In this document: piece after piece, positions 1 to 18,705 of the stretch
How the letters are laid out: each line of letters opens with the position of its first letter
Numbering within the stretch: the stretch's first letter is position 1
NCBI GenBank assembly: GCA_030447125.1
Contig: JAUJLZ010000010.1
Span: 1-20,764, forward strand
Source: Acidimicrobiales bacterium
GTDB taxonomy: Bacteria > Actinomycetota > Acidimicrobiia > Acidimicrobiales > CADCSY01
Length of the DNA: 20,764 nt
Direction: 5' to 3'
Program-made: the position numbers and the translations under genes
Notes under the pieces: model-generated
Seen by the model: only the letters and a program-made list of their open reading frames with translations
Told to the model about the DNA's origin: nothing
Databases searched by the model: none

Positions 1-512
1 TGGCCTACTCGGGGCTGCGCTGGGGGGAGATGGCCGCCCTCACCGCCGACCGGGTCGACCCCTCCCGACGCTGCATCGTCGTCGATCGCCAGGTGGTGGA
101 GACCCGCCACCAGCTGTGCCTGGGGCCGCCCAAGAACCGCCGGCGGCGCACCACCATGTACCCGGCCCGCACCCCAGAAGGGCTTGACTTGGCCGCCTTG
201 GTCGAGCGTCGACTGGGCGAGGTCGGCGGAGAGGAGTTGCTGTTCCCCTCGCCACGGGGGCACTGGCCCCGGCGCTCCAACTACCGGCGCAACACCTTCG
301 CTCCGGCCGCCGCCGCCGCCGGCTGGCCCACTAGGCCGGGTGGACGCCAGGTCTGGACCTTCCACTCGCTGCGCCACGTCTTTGCCACCTGGGCCCTGGC
401 CCAGCCCGGCGCCCGCATCGAGGACGTGTCCCGCCTGCTGGGCCACTCCACCGTGCGGGTCACCCAGGACCTCTACATCTCCCCCGACGGCGACCTCTTC
501 GAGCGCTTCTAG
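1..512 (+). CDS. Tyrosine recombinase (phage-type integrase), C-terminal part, 5' end outside window
   Basis: This is the catalytic domain of a tyrosine site-specific recombinase, which cuts and rejoins DNA through a phosphotyrosine intermediate. The reading frame is open from the left edge, with the first whole codon at base 3. Counting from there gives 169 residues with all late catalytic motifs: Arg6 in SGLRWGE (the first catalytic Arg), His121-x-x-Arg124 in HSLRH, His148 in LLGHS, and the nucleophile Tyr158 in DLYIS. The first complete ATG, at 30, lies inside the domain and is not the start. Stop is TAG at 510-512. It lies 136 bp upstream of the defence cassette in the same direction, which suggests a role in the island's mobility. 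The N-terminal arm-binding and core-binding domains are not visible, so it is not known whether the gene is complete. The family assignment is secure; the mobility role is inferred. Confidence 0.93.
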   Translation, partial: AYSGLRWGEMAALTADRVDPSRRCIVVDRQVVETRHQLCLGPPKNRRRRTTMYPARTPEGLDLAALVERRLGEVGGEELLFPSPRGHWPRRSNYRRNTFAPAAAAAGWPTRPGGRQVWTFHSLRHVFATWALAQPGARIEDVSRLLGHSTVRVTQDLYISPDGDLFERF

Positions 513-560
513 CGGGCCACGGCGTAGGGGGGTCGTCCGGAAGCACGAGGTGGATGCTAC

Positions 561-630
561 GGACCGCAGTGACGTTTGGTGGCCGGCTCTTGGGTCCCAG
601 GGGGCCCAGGTCCGGGGGACCGTCACAGCG
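561..630. repeat. Inverted-repeat and GGWCC-rich leader, possible operator of the cassette
   Basis: Seen directly: CGCAGTGACG (565-574) and CGTCACAGCG (621-630) form a 10-bp inverted repeat with one mismatch. Between them lies a tight hairpin, GGTCC (609-613) and GGACC (617-621), with a 3-nt loop. GGWCC occurs four times in 61 bp (561-565, 593-597, 609-613, 617-621). The segment lies just upstream of the winged-helix gene and its candidate -10 box, so it is a plausible binding site for that protein or for the methyltransferase. That role is inference, because G/C-rich DNA easily gives short palindromes. Confidence 0.4.
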
Positions 631-636
631 TCCGCG

Positions 637-642
637 TACGAT
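637..642 (+). promoter_or_regulatory. Candidate -10 box of a leaderless promoter for the winged-helix / methyltransferase genes
   Basis: The hexamer TACGAT fits the actinobacterial TANNNT -10 pattern and ends 6 nt before the ATG at 649. Transcription would then start at or next to the start codon. No purine-rich ribosome-binding site precedes 649, which fits leaderless translation. No good -35 is visible. The assignment rests on spacing and the missing Shine-Dalgarno sequence. Confidence 0.42.
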
Positions 643-648
643 GCGGCC

Positions 649-1095
649 ATGGTCGCCCGACCTTCTGGCAGGTCTGCCCCCACGCAGGCACGCGCCCGCA
701 GGGCGCAGGCGTCCGACGATGACGCGGTGCGGCGCTACCTTCGTGCCGTCGTGGGGGCGCAGGTGGCCGCCGGAGACACCGTCGAGGCCTCGAGTGATGC
801 GTTCGTCGCTGTCGCGGCGGGCTGGTCAGCACGAACCGGTGTCGACCGGCGAACCTTGATGGACCTCGGCGTCGAGCGTGCCGTTCTCGACGAGGCGGGT
901 GTGCAACAGCCACCTAGTAATGAGGTACTTCGCAGCTGGTGGCCGACCGGTGCGTTCACGGCCGCCGACCTGGCGCGTCGATCAGGGTTGTCCGAGCCGA
1001 CCGTGCGGCGCGCGATCGCGCGCGACGAGAGTGCCGGTCTGCTCCGTCGGACCGCGGGGCACGGTCGGGCGGTGCTGTGGGAGCGGACGGACTGA
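649..1095 (+). CDS. Small winged-helix protein, probable regulator of the cassette
   Basis: A 148-aa protein. Residues 102-136 read as a winged helix-turn-helix: FTAADLARRSGLSEPTVRRA is a helix-turn-helix, and LLRRTAGHGRAVLW looks like the beta-hairpin wing. The N-terminal part (about 22-85) is charged and predicted helical and was not recognised. The ATG at 649 was chosen because a TANNNT box lies 6 nt upstream and the frame upstream of it runs antisense-like through the integrase. The stop TGA shares a base with the methyltransferase ATG (TGATG, 1093-1097), so the two should be co-transcribed and translationally coupled. By analogy with controller proteins of restriction-modification systems it may set methyltransferase or nuclease levels, but it does not resemble the classical Xre-like C proteins. 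Alternatively it could contribute to target recognition. The fold is fairly clear; the function is inferred. Confidence 0.72.
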   Translation: MVARPSGRSAPTQARARRAQASDDDAVRRYLRAVVGAQVAAGDTVEASSDAFVAVAAGWSARTGVDRRTLMDLGVERAVLDEAGVQQPPSNEVLRSWWPTGAFTAADLARRSGLSEPTVRRAIARDESAGLLRRTAGHGRAVLWERTD

Positions 1096-2969
1096 TGGCT
1101 GCCGCCACGCGCAGCTACGGGGTCACGCTGAGGCGCTCCGCCCCTCTGCGCCTGGCGATGCACCCGGCAGCGCCGGACCAGGGCTTGTTCCGACGCTGGA
1201 TGCAGGATTCCGAGCGGCCGGTGGCAGTCGATCTCTTCTGCGGCGCCGGGGGCCTGACGCTGGGGCTGGAGGAGGCTGGGTACCGCGTCGGGCTCGCGGT
1301 CGACACCGACGAGTGGTCACTTGAGACACACGCTCACAACTTCGAGGGACTCGCGCTCAATCTCGATCTCGCGGAGCCGGAAGTCCGCGATGGCGTGGTG
1401 CGGCTCCTCGATGGGATTGACATCGACCTCGTAGCCGGTGGGCCGCCGTGCCAGCCGTACTCACGGGCTGGTCGGTCGAAGATTCGCAGCTTGGTCGAGG
1501 GTGGAGCCCGGGACGCCCTTGATCATCGGCGGGAACTGTGGCGCGCATTCCTTGATGTCGTCGAGCGGGTCCGCCCCCGGGCCGTCCTCATGGAGAACGT
1601 GCCGGATATGGCACTTGGCGACGACGGGGCGGTCCTGCGCCACATGCTCGCTCGGCTTGAGGCGGCGGGGTACGAAACGGACGCCCGGCTCGTAGACACC
1701 TGGTTCCACGGCGTTCCACAGCACCGGCAGCGACTGGTCGTGGTCGGTCTTCGTAACGGCCAGGAGTTCCGCTGGCCCGATGCCGTTGACAGAGTGACCC
1801 TCCGCGACGCGATCGGGGACATGCCCGTACTTGATCCGTCGTGCGGTGACGTCGGGGCGACCGAGCTGCCGTACGCCGGACCGCAGTCGGATTTTCAGCG
1901 CCGCGCCCGGAAGAACTGCACCGGTGAGCGGGCAGAGGTGGTGCTGGACCACGTGACCCGCCCTGTGCGTCCGGACGACCTAGTGGCGTTCCGGCTGATG
2001 AAACCCGGAACGCTGTACAGCGACCTTCCAGAGGACCTGCGCCGGTACCGGGCAGACATCTTTGACGACAAGTACAACCGCCTCGCATGGGATGACCTGT
2101 CGCGATCGATCACGGCGCACATCGCCAAGGATGGTTACTGGTACATCCATCCGGATCAGCACCGGACCCTGACGGTCCGCGAGGCCGCGAGGATTCAGAC
2201 ATTCCCCGATCACTTCCGATTCGCGGGCACTCGCTCACATCAGTTCGCGCAGATCGGCAATGCGGTGCCACCGGCCGTCGGCGAGGCCATTGGGGCCGCG
2301 ATCCTCGAGGCTCTTCGCGCGGACCCGTGCACAGGAGCGGCGAGTGCCCGGCGATGGCGAGCGGACCTGCGCAAGCGGCTAGTCGAGTGGGCGGAGAGCG
2401 ATGCGGTTGGGGTGCCATGGGCATACCCGGGCGCGGTCTGGCCCGCGGTCGTTGGTCAGGTCATGGGGGGTCGCGGGGAGGTCGGCTGGCCAGGGCCGGG
2501 GGCTGTTCTCGCCTTGGCGCCCACATGGCGCGACGCGACCCCCGGCCTTCTGAACGCACTCGTGACGATGGCGGACCCGGGTCCGCGCCAGGCCGCTGCC
2601 CGTCGGCTCGCCCAGGTCGCCGGCGCTGCTCGGGTCGATCCCAATTTGTGGGATGGACAGGCGTGGCGACGCAGCCCAAGCCTGGGACCAACGGCGCGGG
2701 ACTGGATCGATCTCCTGACAGGTGGTGGCGGGATGGTCGCGTCGACGAGTGTCCTGCGAGTGGCCGCTCGTCTGACGGCGTCGGATATCGACCGTCAGAA
2801 CCGGTTGTCGCACGGCCGAATGGAGCTGGCAAGGCTGATCGGGGACGGCGAGAGCGCCGCGGTGATCAACGCCTCTCTCCACCGGTTGGGATCCACGATC
2901 TGCACTGCGGACGACGCCGGCTGCCCGCGCTGCCCACTGCTGGAACTGTGCGGGAGTGCCGGATGTTAG
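1095..2969 (+). CDS. C5-cytosine DNA methyltransferase with C-terminal endonuclease III-like iron-sulphur extension
   Basis: A 624-aa protein that transfers methyl from S-adenosylmethionine to C5 of cytosine in a target of unknown sequence. The methyltransferase occupies about residues 40-410: motif I DLFCGAGG (46-53), motif IV GGPPCQPYS (115-123, catalytic Cys119), motif VI ENVP (167-170), motif VIII QHRQR (209-213), motif IX around TVREAARIQTFP (360-371) and motif X QIGNAVPP (386-393). Residues about 415-624 are extra. They end in Cys603-x6-Cys610-x2-Cys613-x5-Cys619, the exact [4Fe-4S] spacing of endonuclease III and MutY glycosylases. The stretch before it (about 470-600) can be aligned by eye to a HhH-GPD fold, but the catalytic Lys would be Arg536 and the catalytic Asp would be Ser550, so it may be a non-catalytic DNA-binding module. 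The start overlaps the upstream TGA; the frame also extends upstream to 939, but that would overlap the winged-helix gene. It is convergent with vsr, with 2 bp between the stops. Confidence 0.93.
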   Translation: MAAATRSYGVTLRRSAPLRLAMHPAAPDQGLFRRWMQDSERPVAVDLFCGAGGLTLGLEEAGYRVGLAVDTDEWSLETHAHNFEGLALNLDLAEPEVRDGVVRLLDGIDIDLVAGGPPCQPYSRAGRSKIRSLVEGGARDALDHRRELWRAFLDVVERVRPRAVLMENVPDMALGDDGAVLRHMLARLEAAGYETDARLVDTWFHGVPQHRQRLVVVGLRNGQEFRWPDAVDRVTLRDAIGDMPVLDPSCGDVGATELPYAGPQSDFQRRARKNCTGERAEVVLDHVTRPVRPDDLVAFRLMKPGTLYSDLPEDLRRYRADIFDDKYNRLAWDDLSRSITAHIAKDGYWYIHPDQHRTLTVREAARIQTFPDHFRFAGTRSHQFAQIGNAVPPAVGEAIGAAILEALRADPCTGAASARRWRADLRKRLVEWAESDAVGVPWAYPGAVWPAVVGQVMGGRGEVGWPGPGAVLALAPTWRDATPGLLNALVTMADPGPRQAAARRLAQVAGAARVDPNLWDGQAWRRSPSLGPTARDWIDLLTGGGGMVASTSVLRVAARLTASDIDRQNRLSHGRMELARLIGDGESAAVINASLHRLGSTICTADDAGCPRCPLLELCGSAGC

Positions 2970-2971
2970 GG

Positions 2972-3424
2972 TTACCGGCCAGCGGCCCCTCGCGCCGTCC
3001 GCAAGCGCCATTGGCTTTCGATCTCGTCCGCCGCGATGCTGGGCAGTTCGTGCTCCCAGACGCGGAGAACCAGCCAGCCATCGGCCATCAATGCCTCAGT
3101 GTTGCGACCATCCCGGGCGCGATTGGCACCGAGCTTCGTCTGCCACCAGTCGGCGTTGGCTTTCGGGGCGACAGCGTGCTCGGGGCAGCCGTGCCAGAAG
3201 CATCCATCGACGAAGATCGCTATGCGGGCCCGACCGAGAACCACATCCGGCCGCCCCGGCAGGCCGCGCACGTTCACCTGGAAGCGCAGACCGCGGCGGT
3301 GCAGCTCGCGGCGCAGGGCGATCTCGGGCGCGGTCCCGGTGGTACGCAGGGAGGACATAAATCGACGTACGGCCGGGGTCGAGGCGGGCGGCCGGCCAGA
3401 GGTGATCTCGCGACCCGCACGCAC
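2972..3424 (-). CDS. vsr: Very short patch repair (Vsr) endonuclease
   Basis: Vsr nicks 5' of the T in T:G mismatches left when 5-methylcytosine deaminates, and so protects methylated sites from mutation. From the GTG at 3424 the protein is 150 aa, close to the ~155 aa of E. coli Vsr. Visible motifs are the N-terminal FMSSLRTTGTAPE (22-34); LPGRPDVV with the likely catalytic Asp60; the zinc/active-site loop FVDGCFWHGCPEH (71-83); and VWEHEL (122-127). In classical Vsr the last motif is WEC, so a Cys zinc ligand is replaced here by His. The ATG at 3358 (128 aa) would cut into the conserved N-terminal motif, so the longer form is preferred, although no clear ribosome-binding site supports GTG 3424. 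The gene lies antisense between the methyltransferase and the ATPase: its stop is 2 bp from the methyltransferase stop, and its start is 9 bp from the divergent ATPase ATG. Confidence 0.9.
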   Translation of the reverse strand: MRAGREITSGRPPASTPAVRRFMSSLRTTGTAPEIALRRELHRRGLRFQVNVRGLPGRPDVVLGRARIAIFVDGCFWHGCPEHAVAPKANADWWQTKLGANRARDGRNTEALMADGWLVLRVWEHELPSIAADEIESQWRLRTARGAAGR

Positions 3425-3433
3425 GGGTAGATC

Positions 3434-4813
3434 ATGGCCCAAGCCCGGAAGGCTCGACCGCGAGTAGAGGGGATCGTCCCGTCCGCAGCCCGCACCGTTG
3501 CCTCGCTGCGCGACATCGGTTACGACACGCCCCGAGCCACTGCCGACCTGGTGGACAACAGCCTTACGGCGAAGGCCACCGAGGTTGACGTCACACTCCA
3601 TTTTGACGGCGCCGATTCCTGGATACGTGTTGCCGACAATGGCGAGGGCATGGACGCCGCGACGCTGTTGGAGGCCATGCGGTACGGGTCGCAGCGCGAC
3701 TACGCGACGGACGACCTCGGCAAGTTCGGCTTCGGCCTGAAGACCGCATCCACCTCGCAGTGCCGGCGCCTGACCGTTGCGTCGCGGCGCTCCCCGCAGT
3801 ATGCACGGATGGAGGTGCGCTGTCTGGATCTCGGCCACATCGAGCGCACCAACGAGTGGGAGGTCTTGGTCCTCGATGGCGCCGACCGTCCGACGCAGGT
3901 CACCGAGCCAATTCAGACTGAGACCGGAACGGTCGTGCTGTGGCAGGACCTCGATCGCATCCTGGAGTACAAAGACCCCTGGGGAGAGTGGGCCCGCCGC
4001 AAGATGCTCTCGCTGGCCGAGGAGATCGACCTCCACCTAGGGATGGTGTTCCACCGCTTCCTCGCTGGGGAGGTGCGCGGCCGCCGCCTGAGGATCACCG
4101 TCAACGGCTCGAAGGTGGAGCCGTGGGATCCCTTCTGCAGGGACCAGCCGAGGACCGAGGAGCTCCCCGCCAAGGACTTGGTCGTAGCCGGCGCCGACGG
4201 GGTGGGTATCGTCCGGGTGCATCCGTTTGTGCTACCGCGCCAGACGGAGTTCTCCAGCGACGCCGCTTGGCGGAGGGCGTCGGGGCCAGCGAACTGGAAC
4301 CGGCAGCAGGGCTTCTACGTCTACCGCGCCCACCGGATGATCCAGTCCGGCGGGTGGAACCGGCTGCGGACCGCCGACGAGCACCTCAAGATGGCGCGGG
4401 TCTCGCTTGACTTCTACCCGGACCTCGATGCCGTGTTCGGGATCAACATCGCCAAGGCCTACGTGAACCTACCGGAGGACCTCAAGGGTCAGCTGGAACC
4501 GCTGGTCTCGCAGGTGACCCGACGAGCTGATCAGCGCTACCGCACGGCTAGCCCGGCCGGCACTGGCGGATCTTCCGGCGGTGGCTCGCGACGACGGCAG
4601 GGCGGCAACGGTGAGGTCGGTGGACAGTCGGGTGGTCAGAAGGGCGGAGCCGACGGTGATGGCGCACGCGGTGGGCCTCCGGGTCCGCGGGTCCGACCGC
4701 GCCGTGCGATCGAGGACGCGGCTCTGAGCGCAGGCCAGCAGCCAGCCCTCGAGAAGATCGTCCAGGCGCTGCGCGAGCGCTACCCGGAGGTGGCCCGTGA
4801 CCTCGGCTGGTGA
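3434..4813 (+). CDS. MORC/MutL-like GHKL ATPase of the restriction cassette
   Basis: A 459-aa ATPase of the Bergerat (GHKL) fold. It has the N-box DLVDNS (38-43), the G1 box DNGEGM (68-73) and the G2 loop GKFGFGLKTAS (96-106). The position of the usual general-base Glu is Asp38. The S5-type second domain carries GFYVYRAHRMIQSGGW (293-308), a signature shared with MORC and related bacterial ATPases. After about residue 372 comes a Gly/Ser/Arg-rich flexible linker to about 425, then a helical C-terminal tail that could be a partner-docking segment. Such ATPases usually dimerise on ATP binding and clamp DNA. The gene ends 17 bp inside the Z1 gene, so their products probably act together. The ATG at 3434 is only 9 bp from the divergent vsr start, and its promoter would have to lie within vsr. 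The family is secure; the clamp role is inferred from relatives. Confidence 0.92.
   Translation: MAQARKARPRVEGIVPSAARTVASLRDIGYDTPRATADLVDNSLTAKATEVDVTLHFDGADSWIRVADNGEGMDAATLLEAMRYGSQRDYATDDLGKFGFGLKTASTSQCRRLTVASRRSPQYARMEVRCLDLGHIERTNEWEVLVLDGADRPTQVTEPIQTETGTVVLWQDLDRILEYKDPWGEWARRKMLSLAEEIDLHLGMVFHRFLAGEVRGRRLRITVNGSKVEPWDPFCRDQPRTEELPAKDLVVAGADGVGIVRVHPFVLPRQTEFSSDAAWRRASGPANWNRQQGFYVYRAHRMIQSGGWNRLRTADEHLKMARVSLDFYPDLDAVFGINIAKAYVNLPEDLKGQLEPLVSQVTRRADQRYRTASPAGTGGSSGGGSRRRQGGNGEVGGQSGGQKGGADGDGARGGPPGPRVRPRRAIEDAALSAGQQPALEKIVQALRERYPEVARDLGW
4786..4790 (+). promoter_or_regulatory. Strong ribosome-binding site for the Z1 gene
   Basis: GGAGG lies inside the 3' end of the GHKL ATPase gene, 6 nt upstream of the GTG at 4797. 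It decides that start and predicts translational coupling across the 17-bp overlap. Confidence 0.75.
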
Positions 4814-7499
4814 ACGGATCCGCATAGAGGGTCATCTGCATCTGGCGCGCGCCCTCATGGAGCGCGACGGGCTCAACATCCGCGGTGCGCTGCAGCAACT
4901 CAGCCCCTTGGTGCCGCCCGAGGACCACGATGCCGTCGAGGAACTGTGGCACGGCCAGACCTCGACCACGATCACCGTCCTAGAGCCGGCGGCGCTGAGT
5001 GCCGGCGGTCCGCGGCCCTGGGCGCAGGATCTCGACACCTCCCAGGGCTACTACTGGCCACGCCAGCAGTCGTTCCTGCGCAACGTTCTGCACCGCGCCG
5101 ACTTCGAGATCGACAGCCTCGATCGCTCCAGTGACCTTGTGCTCGCCCATCTGGAGGACCCGCACTCACCGGACCCGTTCAACGTGCGCGGGCTTGTCGT
5201 CGGGTACGTGCAGAGCGGCAAGACCGCGAATTTCTCGGCGCTCATCGCCAAGGCCGTGGATGCAGGCTACCGCATTGTGATCGTTCTGTCCGGTCTGCAC
5301 AATACGCTGCGACAGCAGACACAGCACCGGTTGCAGCGCGACCTCGGCCACGAGGACACACCGGGAGTGGGTTCGCCGGAGCCGACGCACGTCTGGGTGT
5401 GGATGACCGGTGACCAGCTCAACGGTGACTTCAATCCGGCAGGCCAGAACGCCGGCGTGCTGCAGGGCAACAACCAGGTCATCCTCGTCGTCAAGAAGAA
5501 CAAGAGCCGCCTGGACCGGCTGATCGGATGGATGCGCAATAAGGTTCCGGCGCACGTTCCGGTGCTCATTGTTGACGACGAGGCGGACCAGGCGTCGGTC
5601 AACACCGGTGGCAACCGGTCGGGCTACGAACCCGATCCAGATGCCACCGACCTGACGGCCGAGGACGTCGACGGCGAGTTCACCCCGGACGAGCTGGACC
5701 CGAGCGCCATCAACCGGCGCATCCGCGAACTGCTGCGGCTCTTCGCCCGCGTCTCCTACGTGGCGTACACGGCGACACCGTTCGCCAACGTGTTGATCGA
5801 TCCGAACGCGATCGACCGCGAGGCTGGGAACGACCTTTTCCCACGGGACTTCATCCTGTCGCTGCCCAAGCCGCCGGGCAGTCGGTACGTCGGCACGGAG
5901 CGCCTCTTTGGGCGGGATCAGCTTCCCGGTGACGCCGACGATGTGCAGGGCCTGGATGTCATCGAGATCGTCCCCGACCATGACGTGCCGATGCTGATCC
6001 CGCCGCGCCGGAGCAACGAGCGTCCGACCATCCCACCGTCGCTGCAGCAGGCGCTGCGCGATTACGTGGTGGCGTCGGCCGCCTGGCTGCAGCGGGCCGG
6101 GCGGGACGTGCCCTGCACGATGCTGGTGCACACCGACATGCGCAAGGCGCTGCAGGACGACATTGCCGATGAGATTGAGGCTGAGCTGGCGTCGCTCCGG
6201 CAGGGATGGAAGTACGACGGCGACGGGGTGCTCCGCGCCGAGCTGGCGCACCGCTGGGAGACCGGGTTCCGGCCGGGCTGTGCAGCAGTCAACCTTGACT
6301 GGGACGTGCCGTTTGCCGACATCGAGGCCGGCGTGGCACAGCTCCTCAACGACGGCATCCCGGTGCGGCGCCTGAACTCGAATCATCTCGACACCGCCGA
6401 CTTTGAGCAGGAGCCAACGCTGAAGGCCGTGCTCGTGGGGGGAAACAAGCTCTCCCGCGGCGTCACCATCGAGGGACTGCTTATCTCGTACTACGTCCGG
6501 CTGTCGCCTTACTACGACACGCTGCTGCAGATGGGCCGCTGGTTCGGCTTCCGCGGTGAGTACGTGGACCTGACCCGGCTGTACAGCACCCAGCTCCTGG
6601 TCTCGTGGTTCCACGACCTGGCCACGGCCGAGGAGGATCTCCGACGGCAGATCGAGCTGTACGACAGACGTCGGGCCACGCCGCTGGACTTCGCGCCCAA
6701 GATCATGAGCCACCCGGTGATGCTCGTCACGGCCGAGAACAAGATGCGGGATGCCCGGGAGATCACTCAGTCCTACGCGGGGGAGCTGGTGCAGACGCTG
6801 CGGTTCCCATTCGGTGATCCCGCGCTCGGTGACCACTTGCTGGAGAACCTGGAGTACACCCGGCAGATGCTGTCGTCGCTCGGCCCGCCGTCAGTGACCG
6901 AGAACGGTCAGCCGGGATGGATCGACGTTGACGTTGGTTTCGTTCAGGAGTTTCTCGACAACTTCTGGGTGATGGAGCAGACGTCCATCCATCCGCCGAC
7001 GGTCCGGGCGTACATCCAGGCGCAGACTGTTCAGCGGGAGTTGACGCGGTGGCGGGTGTTGGTGTGCGCGGCATCGACCCCCACAGAGCGTTTGGGGACC
7101 GAGGAACTTGGCATCGAGGACATGGGACGCGTCGGCCTGATCAACCGCAGCCGACTCGCCAAGGACCCGACGTCGCTCGGCGTCATCACTGATCCGGCTG
7201 ATGAGCTCTTTGGCGTCACGCCCAGCGACATCGCGGACGCTGAGGAGCGCGCAGCCAACCGCGAGTACCCGACAAGGGGCCGGGCGTACCGTTCGAAGCG
7301 CAGCCCGGAGGAGGGGCTGCTGCTGCTCTATCCGATCAGTGGACACTCTCAGCCCGGACGCAATGCCCGAAACCGCGTCGCCCTCTTCGATGAGACTGAC
7401 GACCCCCTGACCGTTGTTGGTCTGGCGGTCAGCTTCCCGGTGTCCGAATCGCCGGCAACGGTCACCTACGTGCAGGGACCCGAGAGCCGCCGCCGGTGA
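4797..7499 (+). CDS. Z1-domain P-loop ATPase of the restriction cassette
   Basis: A 900-aa protein with a helicase-like (SF2-like) ATPase core known as the Z1 domain. Visible motifs are Walker A GYVQSGKT (136-143), Walker B VDDEAD (259-264), a motif III-like TATPFA (325-330), the KLSRGVTIEGLL stretch and the arginine-finger-like QMGRWFGFR (578-586). The order and wording of these motifs are characteristic of Z1 proteins, which are recurrent partners of MORC-like ATPases and DUF4420 nucleases in predicted restriction systems. The likely role is ATP-driven DNA translocation or remodelling that licenses the nucleases; this is inferred. The long C-terminal region (about 620-900) was not matched to a known domain. 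GTG 4797 is supported by the GGAGG 6 nt upstream. The stop shares the GTGA overlap with the next gene, so the four plus-strand genes 3434-9258 form one translationally coupled unit. Confidence 0.92.
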   Translation: MTSAGERIRIEGHLHLARALMERDGLNIRGALQQLSPLVPPEDHDAVEELWHGQTSTTITVLEPAALSAGGPRPWAQDLDTSQGYYWPRQQSFLRNVLHRADFEIDSLDRSSDLVLAHLEDPHSPDPFNVRGLVVGYVQSGKTANFSALIAKAVDAGYRIVIVLSGLHNTLRQQTQHRLQRDLGHEDTPGVGSPEPTHVWVWMTGDQLNGDFNPAGQNAGVLQGNNQVILVVKKNKSRLDRLIGWMRNKVPAHVPVLIVDDEADQASVNTGGNRSGYEPDPDATDLTAEDVDGEFTPDELDPSAINRRIRELLRLFARVSYVAYTATPFANVLIDPNAIDREAGNDLFPRDFILSLPKPPGSRYVGTERLFGRDQLPGDADDVQGLDVIEIVPDHDVPMLIPPRRSNERPTIPPSLQQALRDYVVASAAWLQRAGRDVPCTMLVHTDMRKALQDDIADEIEAELASLRQGWKYDGDGVLRAELAHRWETGFRPGCAAVNLDWDVPFADIEAGVAQLLNDGIPVRRLNSNHLDTADFEQEPTLKAVLVGGNKLSRGVTIEGLLISYYVRLSPYYDTLLQMGRWFGFRGEYVDLTRLYSTQLLVSWFHDLATAEEDLRRQIELYDRRRATPLDFAPKIMSHPVMLVTAENKMRDAREITQSYAGELVQTLRFPFGDPALGDHLLENLEYTRQMLSSLGPPSVTENGQPGWIDVDVGFVQEFLDNFWVMEQTSIHPPTVRAYIQAQTVQRELTRWRVLVCAASTPTERLGTEELGIEDMGRVGLINRSRLAKDPTSLGVITDPADELFGVTPSDIADAEERAANREYPTRGRAYRSKRSPEEGLLLLYPISGHSQPGRNARNRVALFDETDDPLTVVGLAVSFPVSESPATVTYVQGPESRRR

Positions 7500-8479
7500 A
7501 GGCCAACGAGCTGGACGCCGCCTGGCGAGGGCTGCGAACGCCAGATTCGCCCGAACAACTGGAGGCCGTGCGCGTCGCCGGCGGCGGCGTTTGGGCCGCC
7601 GTGGACCACGAGGGCCACCGCCATTTGCTGCTCCAAGTCCCGGACGGGACCGAGGCGCCGCCCACGACCACGCGGGGACTGCAGGTCAGCGTCGCCCGCC
7701 ACCAAGTGCTCGATGCCGAGCCGGCCGCGTTCCTCGATCTCAAGTGCCTCTCCGACGAGGTGGTGCCGACGTTCACCGCCGTCGCGGCCGACATCGGCGC
7801 CAGTGCCGGGGAAGTGCCGCCCGCCGCCCGTCTTCAGGAGGCGGTGTCAGCGCTGGCACGCTGGCAGTGGTTCTGGGGCGTCGAGCCGGGGAAGCTCTCG
7901 GAGCGAGATGCACTCGGGCTCTTCGCGGAATTGTGGTTCCTGCACCGCTGGAGTGGGAGCAGCGCGAGCGCGGTCACCGCGTGGACGGCGTCGATGGGCT
8001 CCCGCCACGACTTCCAGTGGCCGGAACACTCCGTGGAGGTAAAGGCAGCCACCCGGCGGGCGGACGGCGCGATCCTGCACCGCATCCAGCACCTCGACCA
8101 GCTCGCAGACCCGGAGCGGGGGCGCCTATTCCTTTTCAGCCTGCGGGTTGTGCACGACCAGCTCGCGCACAACAGCCTTCCAGACCTCGTGGACCGCATC
8201 AGTGAGGGACTCCGGGGTGACGTCGCCGGCCGGGACGAGTTTTCTCGAAAAGTGGGCCAGCGCGGGTACAGCCCCGCGCACCGCCGGCAGTATGAGACGC
8301 CGTACCGGGTGCTCGGCGAGCACCTGTACGCAGTATCCGAGGGGTTCCCGCGTCTGACCACCGGGTCGTTCCTAGGCGGGGTGCCGGCGGGGATTGCCGA
8401 CGTCTCGTACGTCATCGACGTTGCGGTCTGCGAGCCCTGGCTGGTGACGACGGGGCCCGAGGGTTGGCCGCCAAGTTGA
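7496..8479 (+). CDS. PD-(D/E)XK motif protein, DUF4420 type
   Basis: A 327-aa protein of the DUF4420 kind, a predicted restriction nuclease usually found beside Z1 and MORC-like ATPases. The core is GLFAELWFL (141-149, with the helix Glu145), RHDFQW (170-175, Asp172) and SVEVKAATRR (179-188, Glu181-x-Lys183), followed by HRIQHLDQL (195-203, Gln202). This gives a complete PD-(D/E)XK active site. Residues 1-110 are a beta-rich N-terminal part without recognised motifs, possibly for recognition or partner binding. It starts at a GTG that overlaps the Z1 stop by 4 bp (GTGA, 7496-7499). Its length is normal for the family and there is no sign of decay. That it is the DNA-cutting subunit is inferred from family membership and intact residues. 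Confidence 0.9.
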   Translation: MKANELDAAWRGLRTPDSPEQLEAVRVAGGGVWAAVDHEGHRHLLLQVPDGTEAPPTTTRGLQVSVARHQVLDAEPAAFLDLKCLSDEVVPTFTAVAADIGASAGEVPPAARLQEAVSALARWQWFWGVEPGKLSERDALGLFAELWFLHRWSGSSASAVTAWTASMGSRHDFQWPEHSVEVKAATRRADGAILHRIQHLDQLADPERGRLFLFSLRVVHDQLAHNSLPDLVDRISEGLRGDVAGRDEFSRKVGQRGYSPAHRRQYETPYRVLGEHLYAVSEGFPRLTTGSFLGGVPAGIADVSYVIDVAVCEPWLVTTGPEGWPPS

Positions 8480-9258
8480 CTGAACCTTCATCAGCTGCAG
8501 GGCAGGCGGCCCGATGGTCACTCGATGAGTACGTGGTCGTCGCGGACCTGTACCTGCGCCGCGGACGCAGCTCCGGCGTGGGCGACCCCGAGGTGATCGA
8601 ATTGGCCCGGCTGACGGGCCGGACGCTTGCCTCGATCAGCCGGCGCCTCGGCAACTTTGACGGGACGGCGCGGCCCGGCATGGGACTAAAGCCGGTCATC
8701 GGCGAGGCACGCGACGTGTTCCTCTCGATGCAGGGCGATGCTGCGCTCCGCGAGCGGCTGGCGCGGGAGGCCCGTGCCCGGCTGTCGTCCAGACGGGATG
8801 TACACGAGGCGCACGCCGCGCCCCGCCTCGTCGACCCGGAGGACTTCCAGGTTGACGCCGCCGACGTCCACGCTCCGGCCGTGAGGCGGGAAATGCAGCG
8901 TGTTGAGGCCCAGCTCGTGCGTCGCTACTGCCAGTGGCTCGATCCCGACGGCACGCGGCTACGGGGCGTGCTCATTCCTGCAGGCGGCGTAACCCTGCGA
9001 GCGGACCTCTTCGATACCGAACTGAGCCTGCTGATCGAGGCGAAGGGAGCGACAACCCGCGAGTATGTGCGCTACGGCGTGGGTCAGCTCCTTGACTATC
9101 GGCGGTACCTGACTCCGCGCCCGGCGATTGCTTTCCTGCTCCCCGAACCGCTGCCAGCGGAGCTGGCCGGTCTGGCCGCCGCGGCGGACATCGCTGTCAT
9201 CTGGGCCGTGGGAGGCGGCTTCGCCGACTCGCTTGGTGGTGCCCTCACCACGCAATAA
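8464..9258 (+). CDS. Second PD-(D/E)XK endonuclease with N-terminal recognition-like domain
   Basis: A 264-aa protein. Residues about 18-90 (WSLDEYVVVADLYLRRG..IELARLTGRTLASISRRLGNFDG, then GLKPV) resemble a helical domain placed at the N-terminus of several predicted HNH or PD-(D/E)XK restriction enzymes, probably for DNA or partner recognition. Residues about 143-225 form a nuclease core: a helix with Glu148, RADLFDTELSLLIEAKG with Asp181/Asp184 and Glu192-Ala-Lys194, then GVGQLLDYRRYL (205-216) with Gln208. The TTG at 8464 overlaps the previous gene by 16 bp. A second in-frame TTG at 8476 would give the 4-bp overlap (TTGA) seen at the junction before it, with a GAGGG 12 nt upstream, and is an equally good start. 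It is the last gene of the coupled unit. It may be a second effector or the target-recognising cutter; which of the two nucleases cuts foreign DNA cannot be told. Confidence 0.84.
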   Translation: MAAKLTEPSSAAGQAARWSLDEYVVVADLYLRRGRSSGVGDPEVIELARLTGRTLASISRRLGNFDGTARPGMGLKPVIGEARDVFLSMQGDAALRERLAREARARLSSRRDVHEAHAAPRLVDPEDFQVDAADVHAPAVRREMQRVEAQLVRRYCQWLDPDGTRLRGVLIPAGGVTLRADLFDTELSLLIEAKGATTREYVRYGVGQLLDYRRYLTPRPAIAFLLPEPLPAELAGLAAAADIAVIWAVGGGFADSLGGALTTQ

Positions 9259-9680: not shown

Positions 9681-11690
9681 TCATTCTTGGTCGCCCGAGC
9701 GCTCGTCGTCCCACAGGCAGTTGCGCAACCCGGAGGCGCGGGCGATAGGGCGGTCGATGGCAGCTCGGACCGCTCCCGCTGTCCCGGCAAGGATCAGGCG
9801 CCGGCGGGCGCGGGTTACGGCGGTGTAGAGCAGCTCGCGGGTGAGGATGGGCGACGCCGGGTCGGGCAGCAGCACGGCCACGGTGTCGAACTGCGAGCCC
9901 TGGCTCTTGTGCACCGTCATGGCGTAGACCGTGTCGACCGCGGACAGCCGGGTGGGGCCGAGCTCGAGCAGCTGGCCCCGGCGCTCGAACACCGCGGTCA
10001 CGCGATCGCCATCGGCGGCCACTACCACCCCGGTGTCGCCGTTGTAGAGCCGCAGGCCGTAGTCGTTCTCGGTCACCAGCAGCGGTCGGCCCACGTACCA
10101 GGTGCCGCCAGCGGGGAAGCCGTCGATTTCGGCGGCCAGCCACGCCTCCACCCGTCCCATCCACGTAGACACGCCGTGGGGGCCGCGCCGGTGGGCGCAC
10201 AGCAACCGAAAGCCGCCCAGAGCCTCGATTGCCGCCCTCGCCCGCCCGTCCCGGGCCGCCTCGGTCACCCGCCGGCCGGCGTCAACGGCGGCGACCCGCA
10301 CCATCCGCAGCGCGCCGGCGGCCGGCGCCTTGGCCACGTCGACGGCGAGCCACTGCACCTCGCCGGCCTGGCCGTCGTGCACGTCGCCGGGGCGGCCCTC
10401 CAGCACCTCCAGGGCGGCGTCGCCGTCGCCCCCGCGCACCGCCTCGGCCAGTCGGGCAATGTCACCTCCGAAGCGGTGCACCCGGCGCAGCACCACGATG
10501 CCATCGCCCACGACAGCGCCAGCAGGAGGCTCGGTCACCCTCAACTGGTGGCCGGTCGCCTGGACCAGCGTGGCCCGCGCCGGCGCCCGCATCACCAAAC
10601 CCTCGGCGGCGGGGCCCACGACGTCGCCCAGCACCGCGCCCGCCTCGACCGAGGCCAGCTGCTCGGGGTCGCCCACCAGCACCAGCCGGGCATCGCTGCG
10701 CACCGCCTCGACGAGCTTGGCCATGAGCGACAGCGAGACCATTGACGTCTCGTCGACCACCACCACCTCATGCGGCAACCGGTTGCCCCGATCGTGGCGG
10801 AACCGGCTGCGGCTACCCGGGCGCCAACCCAGCAGGCGGTGCAGCGTGCAGGCGCTACTGGCCATCAGCCGCGCCTGCACCCCGGCGCTCACGTCTAGAC
10901 GGACCGCCTCCTCGTGGACGGCCTCTTCCAGCCGGGCCGCCGCCTTCCCTGTCGGCGCGGCCAGCGCCACCAGCGGTGGCGGCGAGCCCGCGGCCTCCGC
11001 CTGCTCCAGCACCAGGGCCAGTACGCGGGCCACCGTGGTCGTCTTCCCCGTCCCGGGTCCGCCGGCCACCACCGAGAACCGGCGCAGCACCGCCGAGGCG
11101 GCGGCCAGGCGCTGGTGGTCAGGCTCGGCGCTGGCGCCGGCGAAGAGCCGGTCGAGGCCCCGGGCCAGGATGCCGACGTCAACGTTGACCGCCGCCTGGT
11201 CGGCCCGAGCCCGCAGGTCGGCGGCCACCCGGCCCTCCTCCCGCCAGTAGCGGTCGAGGTACAGCCGGGCACCGGCCAGACGCAGTGGGCGGTCGTCGGG
11301 TTCAGCTTGGTTTCCGACGGCCACCAGCGGGCTGGCCGCCACCCGTTGAAGCCAGTCCTCGGGATCGGGCCATGGCAGCGCCTGCAGATCGACGGGTGCC
11401 TCGACATCGACAGTGGCGGTGGTGCGGATGGCCCCGAGGTTGGTGCACACATGGCCCAGCCGGGGGGCACGCACGGCCAGGGCAGCGCCCAGCAGCACAG
11501 TCTCGTCGACCTCCGCGCCGAGCCGTCCCAGGCGCAGAGCCACGTGGACGTCGGCGGCGTTGAGCACGCCGGCGGCGTTGAACGCCTGCAGCATCCCGGG
11601 GGCCCGGCAGGCGAGGCGGACGTCGAACGGGTCGGCCTCGGCGACGTCGGGCGCCTCGGGCCGGATGGGGACGATGTCGACGGGGGTCAC
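9681..11690 (-). CDS. recD: Exodeoxyribonuclease V alpha subunit, RecD helicase
   Basis: RecD is the 5'-3' SF1B helicase motor of RecBCD, which unwinds and trims double-strand DNA ends for RecA loading and destroys linear foreign DNA. The 669-aa protein has Walker A GGPGTGKT (210-217), Walker B VVVDETS (310-316), motif III GDPEQL (340-345), motif V TVHKSQGSQFD (592-602) and motif VI YTAVTRARR (622-630). It is somewhat longer than E. coli RecD (608 aa). The start is GTG at 11690, which overlaps the recB stop by 4 bp (GTGA). A GGAAGG ribosome-binding site lies 8 nt upstream. It is the last gene of the recC-recB-recD operon. No strong intrinsic terminator follows the stop. Identification is secure. 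Confidence 0.95.
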   Translation of the reverse strand: MTPVDIVPIRPEAPDVAEADPFDVRLACRAPGMLQAFNAAGVLNAADVHVALRLGRLGAEVDETVLLGAALAVRAPRLGHVCTNLGAIRTTATVDVEAPVDLQALPWPDPEDWLQRVAASPLVAVGNQAEPDDRPLRLAGARLYLDRYWREEGRVAADLRARADQAAVNVDVGILARGLDRLFAGASAEPDHQRLAAASAVLRRFSVVAGGPGTGKTTTVARVLALVLEQAEAAGSPPPLVALAAPTGKAAARLEEAVHEEAVRLDVSAGVQARLMASSACTLHRLLGWRPGSRSRFRHDRGNRLPHEVVVVDETSMVSLSLMAKLVEAVRSDARLVLVGDPEQLASVEAGAVLGDVVGPAAEGLVMRAPARATLVQATGHQLRVTEPPAGAVVGDGIVVLRRVHRFGGDIARLAEAVRGGDGDAALEVLEGRPGDVHDGQAGEVQWLAVDVAKAPAAGALRMVRVAAVDAGRRVTEAARDGRARAAIEALGGFRLLCAHRRGPHGVSTWMGRVEAWLAAEIDGFPAGGTWYVGRPLLVTENDYGLRLYNGDTGVVVAADGDRVTAVFERRGQLLELGPTRLSAVDTVYAMTVHKSQGSQFDTVAVLLPDPASPILTRELLYTAVTRARRRLILAGTAGAVRAAIDRPIARASGLRNCLWDDERSGDQE

Positions 11691-14600
11691 GGCGCCGGCC
11701 TTCCCGCGTCAAGCAGGCTTGAGAGGGCTTCAATTAGCCCAGCCGGCGGCCGCCAGGCGAACACCCCGCAGGGCTGGTCGCCCACCCGCGGCGTGGCCGC
11801 GCCGAGCATCCCCCGCAAGAAGAGGTAGAGGACCCCGGCGAGATTGCGCTCGGGGTCGTAGCCGGGCAGGCGCCAGCGCAGGTAGCGATGCAGGGCCACG
11901 GTATAGAGCAGGGCTTGGAGCGGATAGTGGGCTCGCGCCATGGCCTCCGCCAAGGCGTCGGGGCGGTAGTGCCAGGCGCTCAGCGGCTCGCCCTCGACGC
12001 CCAGCCAGTTGGTCTTGTAGTCGACCACGGCGAAGCGCGGGGTGCCCTTGCCGCCGCCGGCGCCGGCCGGCAGTCGCAGCACCAGGTCGAGGCTGCCCGA
12101 GAGGTAGCCGCGCAGCCGGCGCTGGAGCGAGGGGTCGCCGAGGCGCTCGGCGTAGCCCGCCAGCACTTCGCTGGGAGGGACGTGTTCGTCGAGCACCGCT
12201 CGCATCCCGTCCAGCGACACCTCGGCGGTCGCCGCGTCACCACCGGCGAGGGGCAGCTCAAAGGCCAGCTCGTCGACCCGGTCAGGCCGCCCTACGTCGC
12301 CCAGCCGGACCTCCCCCACCAAGGGGCCGAGCGGCGTCTCGATGGCCGCCCGCAGTCCCGCCACGACCACCGACGGGTCGCCTGCGTCGACGTGGCGGCG
12401 GGCCCGCTCCCGGGCCAGGGCCGCCGCCAGATCACCGTCGAGGTCGGCGGCGGCGAAGTCGATCCGCTCCAGCACGCCGTGCACCAGCGTGCCCACCTCG
12501 GCCCCGCCGGGCATGGCACTTAGCGGGGCAGAGACTGCGCGTAGGAGGCGCTCGTCGGCGGCGTCCGCCGCCCCGGCCGACCCGGCACCGCCGGCGCCCG
12601 AAATCACCATCGCCTCGTCGGAGACCACCGTGTCCTCGGCCTCGCTGGCCACCCGGTCCTCGTGGGCAGCGGCGGTGATGCCGCTGTAGGACGTGCGCCG
12701 CCAGTCGCTGTCCAACCGGCGCGTAAAGCGGCGTGCCGTGAGCACGGCCGGCGTACTGGCCTCGCCGCTCCACACCTCGCCATGGCCGCCGTCGCTGCGC
12801 TCCACGCTGATGCAACCCGGCGCTTGCCCGGCCAGCCGATGGAACCGGGCCTCGACCTCGGCGTCTTCCGGCGTGGCCTGACCGTCCACTGCCACGTTGC
12901 CGTGCTCGTCCTGGCAGAAGAGCAGCCGGCACAGCGGCGAGTCGCGGCTGTCCCACGACGCCGCCCACCACACCACGGCCTGGTGGCGGGCCCGGGTGAG
13001 GGCGACGTAGGCCAAGCGCAAGTCCTCACCCCGCTGCTCGACCACGTACCTCCGCCAAGAGCTGCCCTGCCCGGTGCTGCCCACGTCGAGCACCCGCCGG
13101 CCGCCGGCGCCTTCGTCGTGGTACACGGGCGGCTCCTCCGAGGGGATCCAACCCGGGCTCCACAGGTAGGGGCAGTAGACGATGGGAAACTCCAGCCCCT
13201 TGCTGCGGTGGACGGTCATGACCTGCACCGCCTCGGCGTCGGACTCCAACCGACGGGCCCGGTCCTCGGCGTCCCGGTCGTCGCCGGCGTCGGCGATGCG
13301 CTGGCGCAGCCAGGCGGTCAGCGCGGTGACGCCCAGCTGCTCGGAGGTAGCCGCCGCGTGCAGGAGCTGGCCGACGTGACGGAGGTCGGTTAGCCGGCGC
13401 TCGCCGTCGTCGTGGAGGAGCACTCGTCCGGGCAAGCCCTCGGCGAGGGTGATGGTCTCCAGCAGCGAGGCCACCCCCCACCGGCGAAGCACGCCGGCCC
13501 AGCGGTGCAGCCGGGCGTGGAGCTCCTCCCAGGCGTCGTCCCCGGCGCTGGCGACCTGCTCGGCAGCCCAACCCACGAACACGGTCAGGGCGGCGGCGTG
13601 AGCCGGGGTGGAGGCCGTGGGCCGCTCAAGAGCCTCGAGCAGGCGCAGCCACTGGATGGCGATGGGGGTGGCGAAGACACTACCGGCGCCATTGATCACC
13701 GCCGGCACGCCGGCGCCATCGAGGGCGTCGCGCACCAGGGCGGCGTCGCGGTGGCGGGGCACGAGCACGGCGATGTGGCCGGGACAGACGGGGACGCGGT
13801 CGGTTTCGTCCCCCCGGTCGGAGCGCTCGACGATCTGCGCCCCGGACGAGACCAGCCGGACCACGTCGGCGGCCAGGTCGGCGGCGGTGTGGTCCCGGGC
13901 GGGCTGGGCGCTCAGGTAGCCCTTCGGGGTGCGCCGGACCAGGCCGTCGTCCCGGTGCACGATGCGCACCCGCAGGGCGGCTGGCTCCGGAGCCCCCACC
14001 AGGCGGGACCCGCGGTTGGCCGCGGCCGCCCGCACCCGGCGGTAGGCGATGTCGGCGTGACCAAGCCTGGACCCGCCGAACAGGGCGTCGTAGGCGTCGA
14101 CCAGGCTCTGATCGCTGCGCCAGTTGATCCTCAGTGTGGCCCGAGCGCGGGCCTCGCGGGCCGCCTCCAGGTAGGCGTAGACGTCGGCTCCCCGGAACGA
14201 GTAGATGGCCTGCTTGGGGTCACCGATCAATACGAGGGTCGCCTCGCCATCGCCGAAGACCCGACGCATGATCTCCCACTGGATGGGGTCGGTGTCCTGG
14301 AACTCGTCGACCAGGGCCACGTGGTAGCGCTCCCGCAGACGCCGGCAGGCGGCCTCGCCACGGGTCTCGTCGGCCAGGGTGTGCCGGAGGCGGGTGAGCA
14401 GGTCGTCGTAGGTGAGCACCGCTGCCCGGCGCTTGCGCCGCTCGACCTCCTCCCGCACGGCGCAGGCCAGCCGCCGGCGCATGGCCTTGTCGCTCTCGTA
14501 GGGGGCCGCCTGGAGCTTGAGGACCGCGTCGGTGCGCTCCACCGCCTTGGCGCCGATGCGTCGGGCTTCGGCCCAACCGAGCCGGCCCACGTCGTCGGCG

Positions 14601-15151
14601 GCGTGGAAGCGGCGGATGTACAGGTCGTCGATCACCTCCCGCACCAGGTCGCGCAGGTCGTCGGTGAAGGTGACGTCGAGCTCGACGTCGCCGGCCACGC
14701 CCAAGCCGCTGAGGACGTGCTGGCAAAACCCATGGGTAGTGGCGATGGTGGCGGCGTCGAAGTCGGCCAGGGCGGTGGCCAGGCGCCGGCGGCGGATCTC
14801 GACTTCGTCGGGTGCCCCGGCGGCCATCAGGGCCAGCACATTGTCGTCGGCGGGTGGGGACGCGCCGGCCAAGGCCTGGGTGAGCCCCTGCTCGGCGGAG
14901 ACCAGGCGCCGGCGGACGCGGTCGCGCAGCTCGCCGGTGGCCATGCGGGTGAAGGTGACCAGCAGGAGGTGCTCGAGAGGGGTGCCATCGGCCACGTAGC
15001 GGGCGGCCAAGCCGGCGATGGTGAAGGTCTTGCCGGTGCCGGCGCTGGCCTCGAGCACGGTGATGCCGCTGGGCAGGGGGCCACAGACGTCGAAGGGGGG
15101 AACGTCACCGGCGCCGGCGACGTGGCTCTCGGCATCGCTCACGGAGCTCAC
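11687..15151 (-). CDS. recB: Exodeoxyribonuclease V beta subunit, RecB helicase-nuclease
   Basis: RecB carries the 3'-5' UvrD-type helicase and the only nuclease site of RecBCD. From GTG 15151 it has 1154 aa (E. coli 1180). Helicase motifs are EASAGTGKT (34-42), VDEFQDTDP (281-289), GDPKQAIYSFRGAD, the TVHRSKGLEFP motif (646-656) and YVALTRARH. The C-terminal nuclease has the full RecB set: His891 in GTLVHGVLE, Asp1022 in SLDLVL, and Asp1044-Tyr-Lys1046 in VVDYKTNW. GTG 15151 was chosen because it overlaps the recC stop by 4 bp (GTGA) and has GAGGAGGT 9 nt upstream. The frame is open further upstream to 15661, but that region is the recC 3' end in another frame. All catalytic residues are present, so an active enzyme is expected. 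Confidence 0.96.
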   Translation of the reverse strand: MSSVSDAESHVAGAGDVPPFDVCGPLPSGITVLEASAGTGKTFTIAGLAARYVADGTPLEHLLLVTFTRMATGELRDRVRRRLVSAEQGLTQALAGASPPADDNVLALMAAGAPDEVEIRRRRLATALADFDAATIATTHGFCQHVLSGLGVAGDVELDVTFTDDLRDLVREVIDDLYIRRFHAADDVGRLGWAEARRIGAKAVERTDAVLKLQAAPYESDKAMRRRLACAVREEVERRKRRAAVLTYDDLLTRLRHTLADETRGEAACRRLRERYHVALVDEFQDTDPIQWEIMRRVFGDGEATLVLIGDPKQAIYSFRGADVYAYLEAAREARARATLRINWRSDQSLVDAYDALFGGSRLGHADIAYRRVRAAAANRGSRLVGAPEPAALRVRIVHRDDGLVRRTPKGYLSAQPARDHTAADLAADVVRLVSSGAQIVERSDRGDETDRVPVCPGHIAVLVPRHRDAALVRDALDGAGVPAVINGAGSVFATPIAIQWLRLLEALERPTASTPAHAAALTVFVGWAAEQVASAGDDAWEELHARLHRWAGVLRRWGVASLLETITLAEGLPGRVLLHDDGERRLTDLRHVGQLLHAAATSEQLGVTALTAWLRQRIADAGDDRDAEDRARRLESDAEAVQVMTVHRSKGLEFPIVYCPYLWSPGWIPSEEPPVYHDEGAGGRRVLDVGSTGQGSSWRRYVVEQRGEDLRLAYVALTRARHQAVVWWAASWDSRDSPLCRLLFCQDEHGNVAVDGQATPEDAEVEARFHRLAGQAPGCISVERSDGGHGEVWSGEASTPAVLTARRFTRRLDSDWRRTSYSGITAAAHEDRVASEAEDTVVSDEAMVISGAGGAGSAGAADAADERLLRAVSAPLSAMPGGAEVGTLVHGVLERIDFAAADLDGDLAAALARERARRHVDAGDPSVVVAGLRAAIETPLGPLVGEVRLGDVGRPDRVDELAFELPLAGGDAATAEVSLDGMRAVLDEHVPPSEVLAGYAERLGDPSLQRRLRGYLSGSLDLVLRLPAGAGGGKGTPRFAVVDYKTNWLGVEGEPLSAWHYRPDALAEAMARAHYPLQALLYTVALHRYLRWRLPGYDPERNLAGVLYLFLRGMLGAATPRVGDQPCGVFAWRPPAGLIEALSSLLDAGRPAP

Positions 15152-18100: not shown

Positions 18101-18576
18101 GGGCGGTGCACGCCGTAGCGGTCGTAGAGGTCAGCGATGTGGCGCACGCTGGTGAACCGCCGGGCCCGCCGGCCGGCAACCTCCTGGTCCCCTGCTGCCG
18201 CCGTCGCGCCCAGGTGGGCAGCCAGTGGTGCCAGCCACGGCTCGCCCAGCCAGGCGTCGACCACCTCGAGCAGCGGCCACACCGACCGCTCAGGCAGCCA
18301 CGGGTCGTTGTCCCGGTCTACGCCGGTCGCCGCCGCCATTGCGCCGCCGATCAGGCGCCCCGGGAAGGGGAACTCGACGTTGGCGCACACGCCGTCGGCT
18401 CGCCCCGGCGTGGCTCCCAGCCGGCCCGACAGCCGCTGGGTGAGCCAGCGCTCGACGCCCCGGGTCGGAACGGCGACGACCTCCGCCTCCAGCGGGTCGT
18501 CCAGCGGCTCGGCCAGCAGGGCCCCGAGCGCCTCGACGAGTACGTCGGCCCGCTCAGCTCGGTGCAGGTGCAGCAC
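15148..18576 (-). CDS. recC: Exodeoxyribonuclease V gamma subunit, RecC
   Basis: RecC is the scaffold that splits the DNA strands, scans for Chi and guides single strands to RecB and RecD; its helicase-like and nuclease-like folds are inactive in known members. From GTG 18576 it has 1142 aa (E. coli 1122). The N-terminus LHLHRAERADVLVEAL and VPTRGVERWLTQRLS (36-50) are typical of RecC. Other RecC-like stretches are VCANVEFPFPGRLI near the N-terminus, VHSCHGQARQVEVLRDAILH, VIVMCPDIETFAPLI and VVCLLGLDDGVFPR. GTG 18576 is preferred over the ATG at 18630 because the family sequence begins there and AAGGGA lies 10 nt upstream. It is the first gene of the operon, and its promoter should lie within about 18577-18760. 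The actinobacterial Chi sequence cannot be inferred from this protein by eye. Confidence 0.95.
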   Translation of the reverse strand: MLHLHRAERADVLVEALGALLAEPLDDPLEAEVVAVPTRGVERWLTQRLSGRLGATPGRADGVCANVEFPFPGRLIGGAMAAATGVDRDNDPWLPERSVWPLLEVVDAWLGEPWLAPLAAHLGATAAAGDQEVAGRRARRFTSVRHIADLYDRYGVHRPAMLRRWAAGDDTDGGGRPLRDDAAWQARLWRHLRDRIDRPSPAERLDEACALLAKEGSPCDLPRRLSLFGLTRLPASYLQVLHALAVERDVHLFLLHPSPTLWQRVAETAPRPLGIVRRSDDPTADVAHNRLLGSWGRDAREMQLVLTAGAGPQADHHRPLEAPAATLLERIQADVRADRSPPGPPLPGQADTRPMLDAADRSVQVHSCHGQARQVEVLRDAILHLLAENETLEPRDVIVMCPDIETFAPLIHADLRVRLADRSLRQTNPLLGVVSELLTLADARLTASQVLDLVSRDPVRRRFRLDDDDLARTQEWVAATGVRWGLDAAHRAPFKLDRLDANTWRSGLDRVLLGVAMADEGQRLVGGIVPLDDVDSSAIDLAGRLAELLDRLHAALDSLRDPQPAPDWTAAIAAAADALTATSEADSWQRAQLGRLLDEVVEEATFDGATSSAELALPEVRALLADRLRGRPTRANFRTGHLTICTLVPMRSVPHRVVCLLGLDDGVFPRKTARDGDDLILDDPYVGDRDARSEDRQLLLDAVLAATERLVVTYAGRDERTNVERPPAVPVGELLDVVDRTVRIEAGPGGRERPASQQVVVSHPLQPFDARNFTAGTLVPDRPWSFDAVALDGARALAGPRPHPPAFLSGRLAPVAGDVVELADLDRFVQHPVKAFLRQRLGISLTERSEDVDDALPVELDHLERWAVGDRLLTARLAGADLDACVAAEVARGSLPPGALAGPVLDDVCPAVEELVAAATELIGTADDLRSVEVALRLPDGRLLVGTVPGVRGTLAATVIYSRVAPKHRLAAWARFLTLSAAHPAAGFQAITIGRRRADAPRRWQVTVARLAAFEGDPSGRREQALHHLGRLVELYDRGMCEPLPLYCETSAAHATARAAGEDAEDAARRVWQSDWNFPKEDSHPEHLLVLGGARSFAELLAAPPCDDEQGDAWAADERTRFGRYARRLWDGLLEREEVGDR
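15161..15168 (-). promoter_or_regulatory. Strong ribosome-binding site for recB
   Basis: On the minus strand this reads GAGGAGGT, 9 nt before the recB GTG at 15151 and within the recC 3' end. It fixes the recB start. Confidence 0.75.
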
Positions 18577-18705
18577 GCCGTGAGGATCCCTTCCCGATCG
18601 GACGAGTATGCCCCCAACCGAGCAGGCCATCGGTCACACGGAGCGGTCACGAGCCCGCGCCTGGCCGCCAGCACTCACCCCAGGGGCGCGTTGACGTTGC
18701 ACTTC

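Follow-up and report, generated by a model that had tools for sequence, protein, structure and literature searches.

A C5-cytosine methyltransferase with a glycosylase-like tail that appears to have lost base excision and kept its iron-sulfur cluster site

Why would a cytosine methyltransferase carry, at its C-terminal end, the fold of an iron-sulfur DNA repair glycosylase? The question is raised by a gene in a 20,764-nucleotide stretch of an Acidimicrobiales genome (contig JAUJLZ010000010.1; "the window" means this whole stretch), which encodes a C5-cytosine DNA methyltransferase of 624 amino acids, or 676 if translation begins at an in-frame GTG at position 939. Judging from sequence comparisons, the family to which its C-terminal tail belongs has dropped excision chemistry and held on to a [4Fe-4S] cluster site, and we think it probable that the tail is a non-catalytic module that engages DNA. 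The comparisons suggest that a repair enzyme has been reused as a DNA-holding part in a probable anti-phage locus.

Fold and cluster site of the tail

The front domain matches PF00145 at 191.2 bits (cut-off 22), which places the protein among the C5-cytosine DNA methyltransferases, and it contains what we take to be the PPCQ, ENV and GNAVPP motifs. Behind it, an AlphaFold model (predicted local distance difference test, pLDDT, 91.2) agrees with a profile search in assigning the tail to the [4Fe-4S] HhH-GPD fold (HhH, helix-hairpin-helix), as a sequence-only reading of this DNA had proposed; the unrelated fold that would have counted against that proposal appeared in neither. The same reading had likened the tail to Nth and MutY. 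The likeness to MutY holds, because this enzyme and the T:G glycosylase MIG come closest to the tail among solved structures; endonuclease III (Nth), which has the same cluster spacing, does not. For a sister subfamily of tails the nearest solved relative is MIG. MIG (Mig.MthI, PDB 1kea, the thymine-DNA glycosylase of Methanothermobacter) has the fold, the four-Cys loop and an R-x3-R helix in common with the tail, whereas MutY and MUTYH differ from it in that the tail stops at the cluster loop and so has no C-terminal 8-oxoguanine domain.

Single-sequence Pfam scans of the tail gave no family above cut-off, so that Pfam annotation of the protein ends at the methyltransferase domain. None of 17 tails matched PF00730 (HhH-GPD) at an expectation value (E) of 1 or below, and four of them matched EndIII_4Fe-2S weakly; the NCBIfam mutY model matched the single window sequence with E = 1.7e-5, under that model's cut-off. 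When the full-length model was submitted to Foldseek, similarity among the 50 matches listed ran through the methyltransferase part.

The whole tail contains five cysteines, four of which (C603, C610, C613 and C619 in the 624-residue reading) form the Cys-x6-Cys-x2-Cys-x5-Cys loop already recognized in the letters at residues 603-619. This pattern arose in 4 of 200,000 shuffled tails (209 residues, same composition). With residues 412-624 as query, 29 proteins came up at E <= 0.01, each of them containing PF00145, and a database entry of 624 amino acids (P0002) has a tail 100% identical to that of the window protein. Scanning genomes for a pattern yielded 16 loci, every one actinobacterial by record title, one of which (L005) has a second, more glycosylase-like tailed copy, P0031. 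Searching with the P0031 tail retrieved 248 proteins, with PF00145 in all 120 among the matches listed. The tail is also present in a methyltransferase of a Synechococcus plasmid (P0152; Cys spacing x5-x2-x5); a search with its tail found a single relative.

All four cysteines are present in 29/29 rows of a first alignment (P0001 and 28 others, the identical P0002 being omitted), in 128/128 rows of a second (relatives from the P0031-tail search and members of the window family), and in all 186 distinct tailed proteins when these are pooled, window protein included. Their spacing is x6-x2-x5 in 177 proteins, x6-x2-x6 in five, x7-x2-x5 in two and x5-x2-x5 in two. Because 37 of the 186 are locus open reading frames (ORFs) that were picked by the four-Cys pattern, or inspected after the pattern had missed them, just 149 amount to an independent test of conservation. 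Close homologs without the four cysteines, the other outcome that would have spoken against the proposal, are absent among the tailed relatives compared, in a sampling that was anchored on the tail and had homologs that had lost it out of its reach; methyltransferases without the tail do occur in related loci.

R555, R559 and W432 are likewise found in 186/186 fused tails, G574 in 183 and R575 in 184. By alignment, R555 and R559 map to the cluster-anchoring pair R241 and R245 of MUTYH: R241 corresponds to R149 of GsMutY, five residues after D144, and R555 is five residues after S550. According to the accessible text of PMC12000561, R241 and N238 of MUTYH link the cluster to the catalytic Asp236, the R241Q protein retains its cluster, yet has no activity and a lower affinity for DNA, and R245H and R245C lose the cluster.

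Loss of the excision residues

The 186 fused tails were compared in one alignment with 11 unfused MIG and MutY sequences. At the catalytic Asp position, for which S550 had been named correctly, the fused proteins have Thr (110), Ser (40), Gly (26), Ala (4), Arg (2), Asn (2), Val (1) or Lys (1); the only unfused sequence without Asp is the engineered D144N. The tail thus lacks the catalytic Asp expected of a MutY/MIG-type glycosylase. Two residues further on, at S552, the Asn of all 11 unfused sequences, MutY included, is replaced throughout the fused set by Gly (135), Ser (29), Ala (11), Pro (6), Thr (4) or Leu (1). The sequence-only reading had put an Arg, numbered 536, at the catalytic Lys position, but the Arg is residue 535 (536 is Asp) and the site aligns with T533. 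Here the fused proteins have Ala (87), Ser (83), Thr (6), Lys (1) and a few others, never Tyr, and the window protein has none of the Tyr, Ser or Lys expected at this HhH active-site position. Since E. coli MutY has Ser there (S120; accessible text of PMC2714593), the residue alone does not exclude activity for the 83 relatives with Ser. At the catalytic Glu position, Gln is found in 16 of the 186 fused proteins, including that of the window (Q455).

MIG stands alone as an active enzyme and has Glu42, Tyr126 and a catalytic Asp, whereas the window tail is fused and has Q455, T533 and S550. The accessible text of PMC2714593 names Glu42 of Mig.MthI, describes Tyr126 as possibly important for T/G activity, and has the enzyme acting on deaminated 5-methylcytosine. 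With Asp and Tyr lost, and the four Cys and two Arg invariant, the tail looks like a pseudo-glycosylase with a kept cluster site.

Could it still excise bases from an unorthodox site, with Thr, Ser or Gly in place of Asp, and so remove T from T:G pairs or modified bases from invading DNA? The MIG-like sister subfamily and the Glu kept in 124/186 fused proteins would fit such an activity. We consider it very unlikely, because Asp, Tyr and the post-Asp Asn are each missing in 186/186, the window protein has Gln for Glu, and T:G is already handled by the neighboring Vsr endonuclease. That eight different letters occur at the Asp position suggests free drift, as in a decaying passenger domain with no function, but this is the least probable explanation, given that the Cys, the Arg pair and W432 are invariant, and G574-R575 nearly so, in proteins whose identity to the window tail goes down to ~21-30%. 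A redox or iron switch, in which the cluster senses oxidative state and tunes the methyltransferase, would account for ligands kept in 186/186 proteins despite lost catalysis; it too is improbable, as MUTYH requires its cluster for DNA binding as well (accessible text of PMC12000561) and no tie of the locus to redox regulation was seen.

An MZA-like locus and the proposed role of the tail

The Vsr gene converges on the methyltransferase gene with a gap of 2 bp, and its product is assigned to Vsr by TIGR00632 (121.1 bits, cut-off 97.85). Beyond it (Table 1) lie genes for MzaB-, MzaC- and MzaD-like proteins, overlapping and in the order of the MZA system (mzaABCDE; NCBIfam NF041932-NF041934). 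PADLOC matches these three proteins with E = 2.5e-69, 3.5e-103 and 4.7e-12, but they score far under the NCBIfam cut-offs (252.7 vs 850, 414 vs 1500 and 93.4 vs 420). The window also differs from MZA in adding the tailed methyltransferase and Vsr, and in that no AIPR protein (MzaE) or sigma factor (MzaA) was matched among its scanned proteins. MORC/paraMORC systems have in common with it a GHKL ATPase, a superfamily II helicase, a restriction-endonuclease-fold protein, a cytosine methylase and Vsr, but neither "glycosylase" nor "HhH" appears anywhere in the accessible text of PMC2292703. A 264-residue ORF that follows the MzaD-like gene had no match in Pfam, PADLOC, NCBIfam or PHROGs. Its R-A-D-L, I-E-A-K and G-Q-L-L-D-Y, read by eye, suggest a PD-(D/E)XK nuclease.

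Table 1. Features of the methyltransferase gene and its locus in the window.
Feature	Position	Strand	Basis or remark
C5-cytosine methyltransferase with C-terminal pseudo-HhH-GPD [4Fe-4S] domain (putative)	1095..2969	+	624 amino acids; ATG at 1095, stop 2967-2969
DNA_methylase domain PF00145, residues 45-404	1227..2306	+	E 4.1e-56
HhH-GPD-fold tail, residues ~420-624	2352..2966	+	Profile search and AlphaFold model
Q455, MutY/MIG catalytic Glu position	2457..2459	+	Glu 11/11 unfused, 124/186 fused; Gln here
T533, MIG Tyr126 / Nth Lys position	2691..2693	+	Tyr 11/11 unfused, 0/186 fused
S550, catalytic Asp position	2742..2744	+	Asp 0/186 fused, 10/11 unfused
R555 and R559, equivalents of MUTYH cluster-anchoring Arg pair	2757..2771	+	186/186; mapping by alignment
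Cluster loop C603-x6-C610-x2-C613-x5-C619	2901..2951	+	Alignments, shuffling
Vsr mismatch endonuclease	2972..3424	-	E 3e-35; likely GTG start at 3424
MzaB-like GHKL/MutL-type ATPase	3434..4813	+	Family searches
Gene between MzaB-like and MzaD-like genes	4797..7499	+	Family searches
MzaD-like DUF4420 PD-(D/E)XK protein	7496..8479	+	Family searches
264-residue ORF, candidate further component	8464..9258	+	Overlaps the preceding (MzaD-like) gene

The sequence-only reading had called an altered glycosylase module beside Vsr unusual. The alteration and the adjacency are confirmed, but with 248 tail relatives and recurring gene neighborhoods the arrangement is not a single case. Tail-less methyltransferases in related loci also accompany Vsr, which is thus not specific to the tail.

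We propose that the protein would serve as methyltransferase in a defence locus that is MZA-like and of restriction type, with a C-terminal domain derived from a MIG/MutY-type mismatch glycosylase. The front domain would methylate and the separate Vsr would nick T:G, while the tail would help the methyltransferase to hold and scan DNA, perhaps favoring distorted sites or the T:G sites that arise from 5-methylcytosine deamination; its most likely partner would be the MzaB ATPase. We infer a non-catalytic DNA module because the fold and the [4Fe-4S] residues are kept and the base-excising residues lost, and the residues kept are those that serve cluster retention and DNA contact in MUTYH, so that a bound cluster is also to be expected.

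The main rival is a partner-docking scaffold: the tail would stay off DNA and bind only MzaB or Vsr, joining methyltransferase and effector. We regard this as possible but doubtful. The cluster residues are all kept, and so is the Arg through which MUTYH couples cluster, Asp and DNA; it is not obvious why a scaffold would need them. Tails also occur at four loci without a detected MzaB-like gene (L001, L002, L003 and L062), although a different GHKL-domain gene adjoins in L001 and L062.

Several observations weigh against a DNA-engaging tail that works with MzaB. The Gly-x-Gly of the HhH hairpin is eroded in the window tail (SLGPTA), which may have reduced or abolished its hold on DNA, and the net charge of the tail is just +4. 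The retention of Glu in two thirds of the fused proteins is above the expectation of simple decay. MZA-like loci of Proteobacteria and Bacteroidota have the ATPase and lack the tail. The association between tail and MzaB, uncorrected for kinship, has p = 0.009 when one ambiguous locus is counted otherwise; of 12 tail-less places, a C5-methyltransferase was detected in seven, and MzaB in one of these seven (p = 0.0047).

Loci L050-L054 have two different tailed methyltransferases, convergent, with one Vsr between them and type-B tails (C-x6-C-x2-C-x6-C). In L005 (1619-16295) both the tailed methyltransferase and the MzaB-like ATPase are present twice, the second MzaB lying tail-to-tail with the second methyltransferase.

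In the window, an ORF at 184-1095 (+) has a terminal winged helix-turn-helix (MarR-like, under the Pfam cut-off) and may regulate the locus, because its stop codon overlaps the methyltransferase start codon. The edge of the locus is marked by the C-terminal part of a tyrosine recombinase (PF00589; 30-512, +) and its other flank by a RecD/RecB/RecC cluster (9681-18630, -), so the system may have been inserted as an island. Past that cluster, at 19154-20703, are ORFs of 373 (+) and 143 (-) amino acids with no Pfam match. Scans of the window for Rfam families and for tRNAs found none.

Origin of the tail and its significance

In an unrooted tree of the domains (56 fused, 11 unfused), a branch with 100/100 support sets the fused ones apart; the placement of P0152 is unsure because its branch is very long. 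Genome-scan matches with open frames of 299-429 amino acids were taken as MutY, and of ten examined, three fitted the Cys pattern and were used.

As had been anticipated, separate T:G glycosylase genes do lie beside methyltransferases. We surveyed six of 78 matching records, chosen among those without a mutY annotation, and all six, plasmids of Thermus (two), Caldicellulosiruptor, Halobaculum, Halorubrum and Halomicrobium, have unfused MIG-like genes near C5-methyltransferases, each with the catalytic Asp. On Thermus pAA1-1c the gene overlaps the C5-methyltransferase gene. On Thermus plasmid pTthSNM7-6d (L089, 4968-5666) the MIG-like ORF is unannotated, has the Asp and overlaps the end of a C5-methyltransferase gene, and on the haloarchaeal plasmids (L091, L092 and L093) the MIG-like genes are labelled hypothetical and lie at most three genes from a C5-methyltransferase. 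MIG-type genes thus resemble the tail in their company, and the simplest story is that an active MIG-like partner was fused to the methyltransferase and later stripped of catalysis.

This domain architecture, un-annotated by Pfam, is a candidate link between mismatch-repair machinery (a MIG-like fold, Vsr and a MutL-like ATPase) and a defence system. It also offers a natural experiment on the role of the [4Fe-4S] cluster in HhH glycosylases: since every tailed protein compared is without the Asp, yet keeps the ligands and the anchoring Arg, the cluster site must matter beyond excision.
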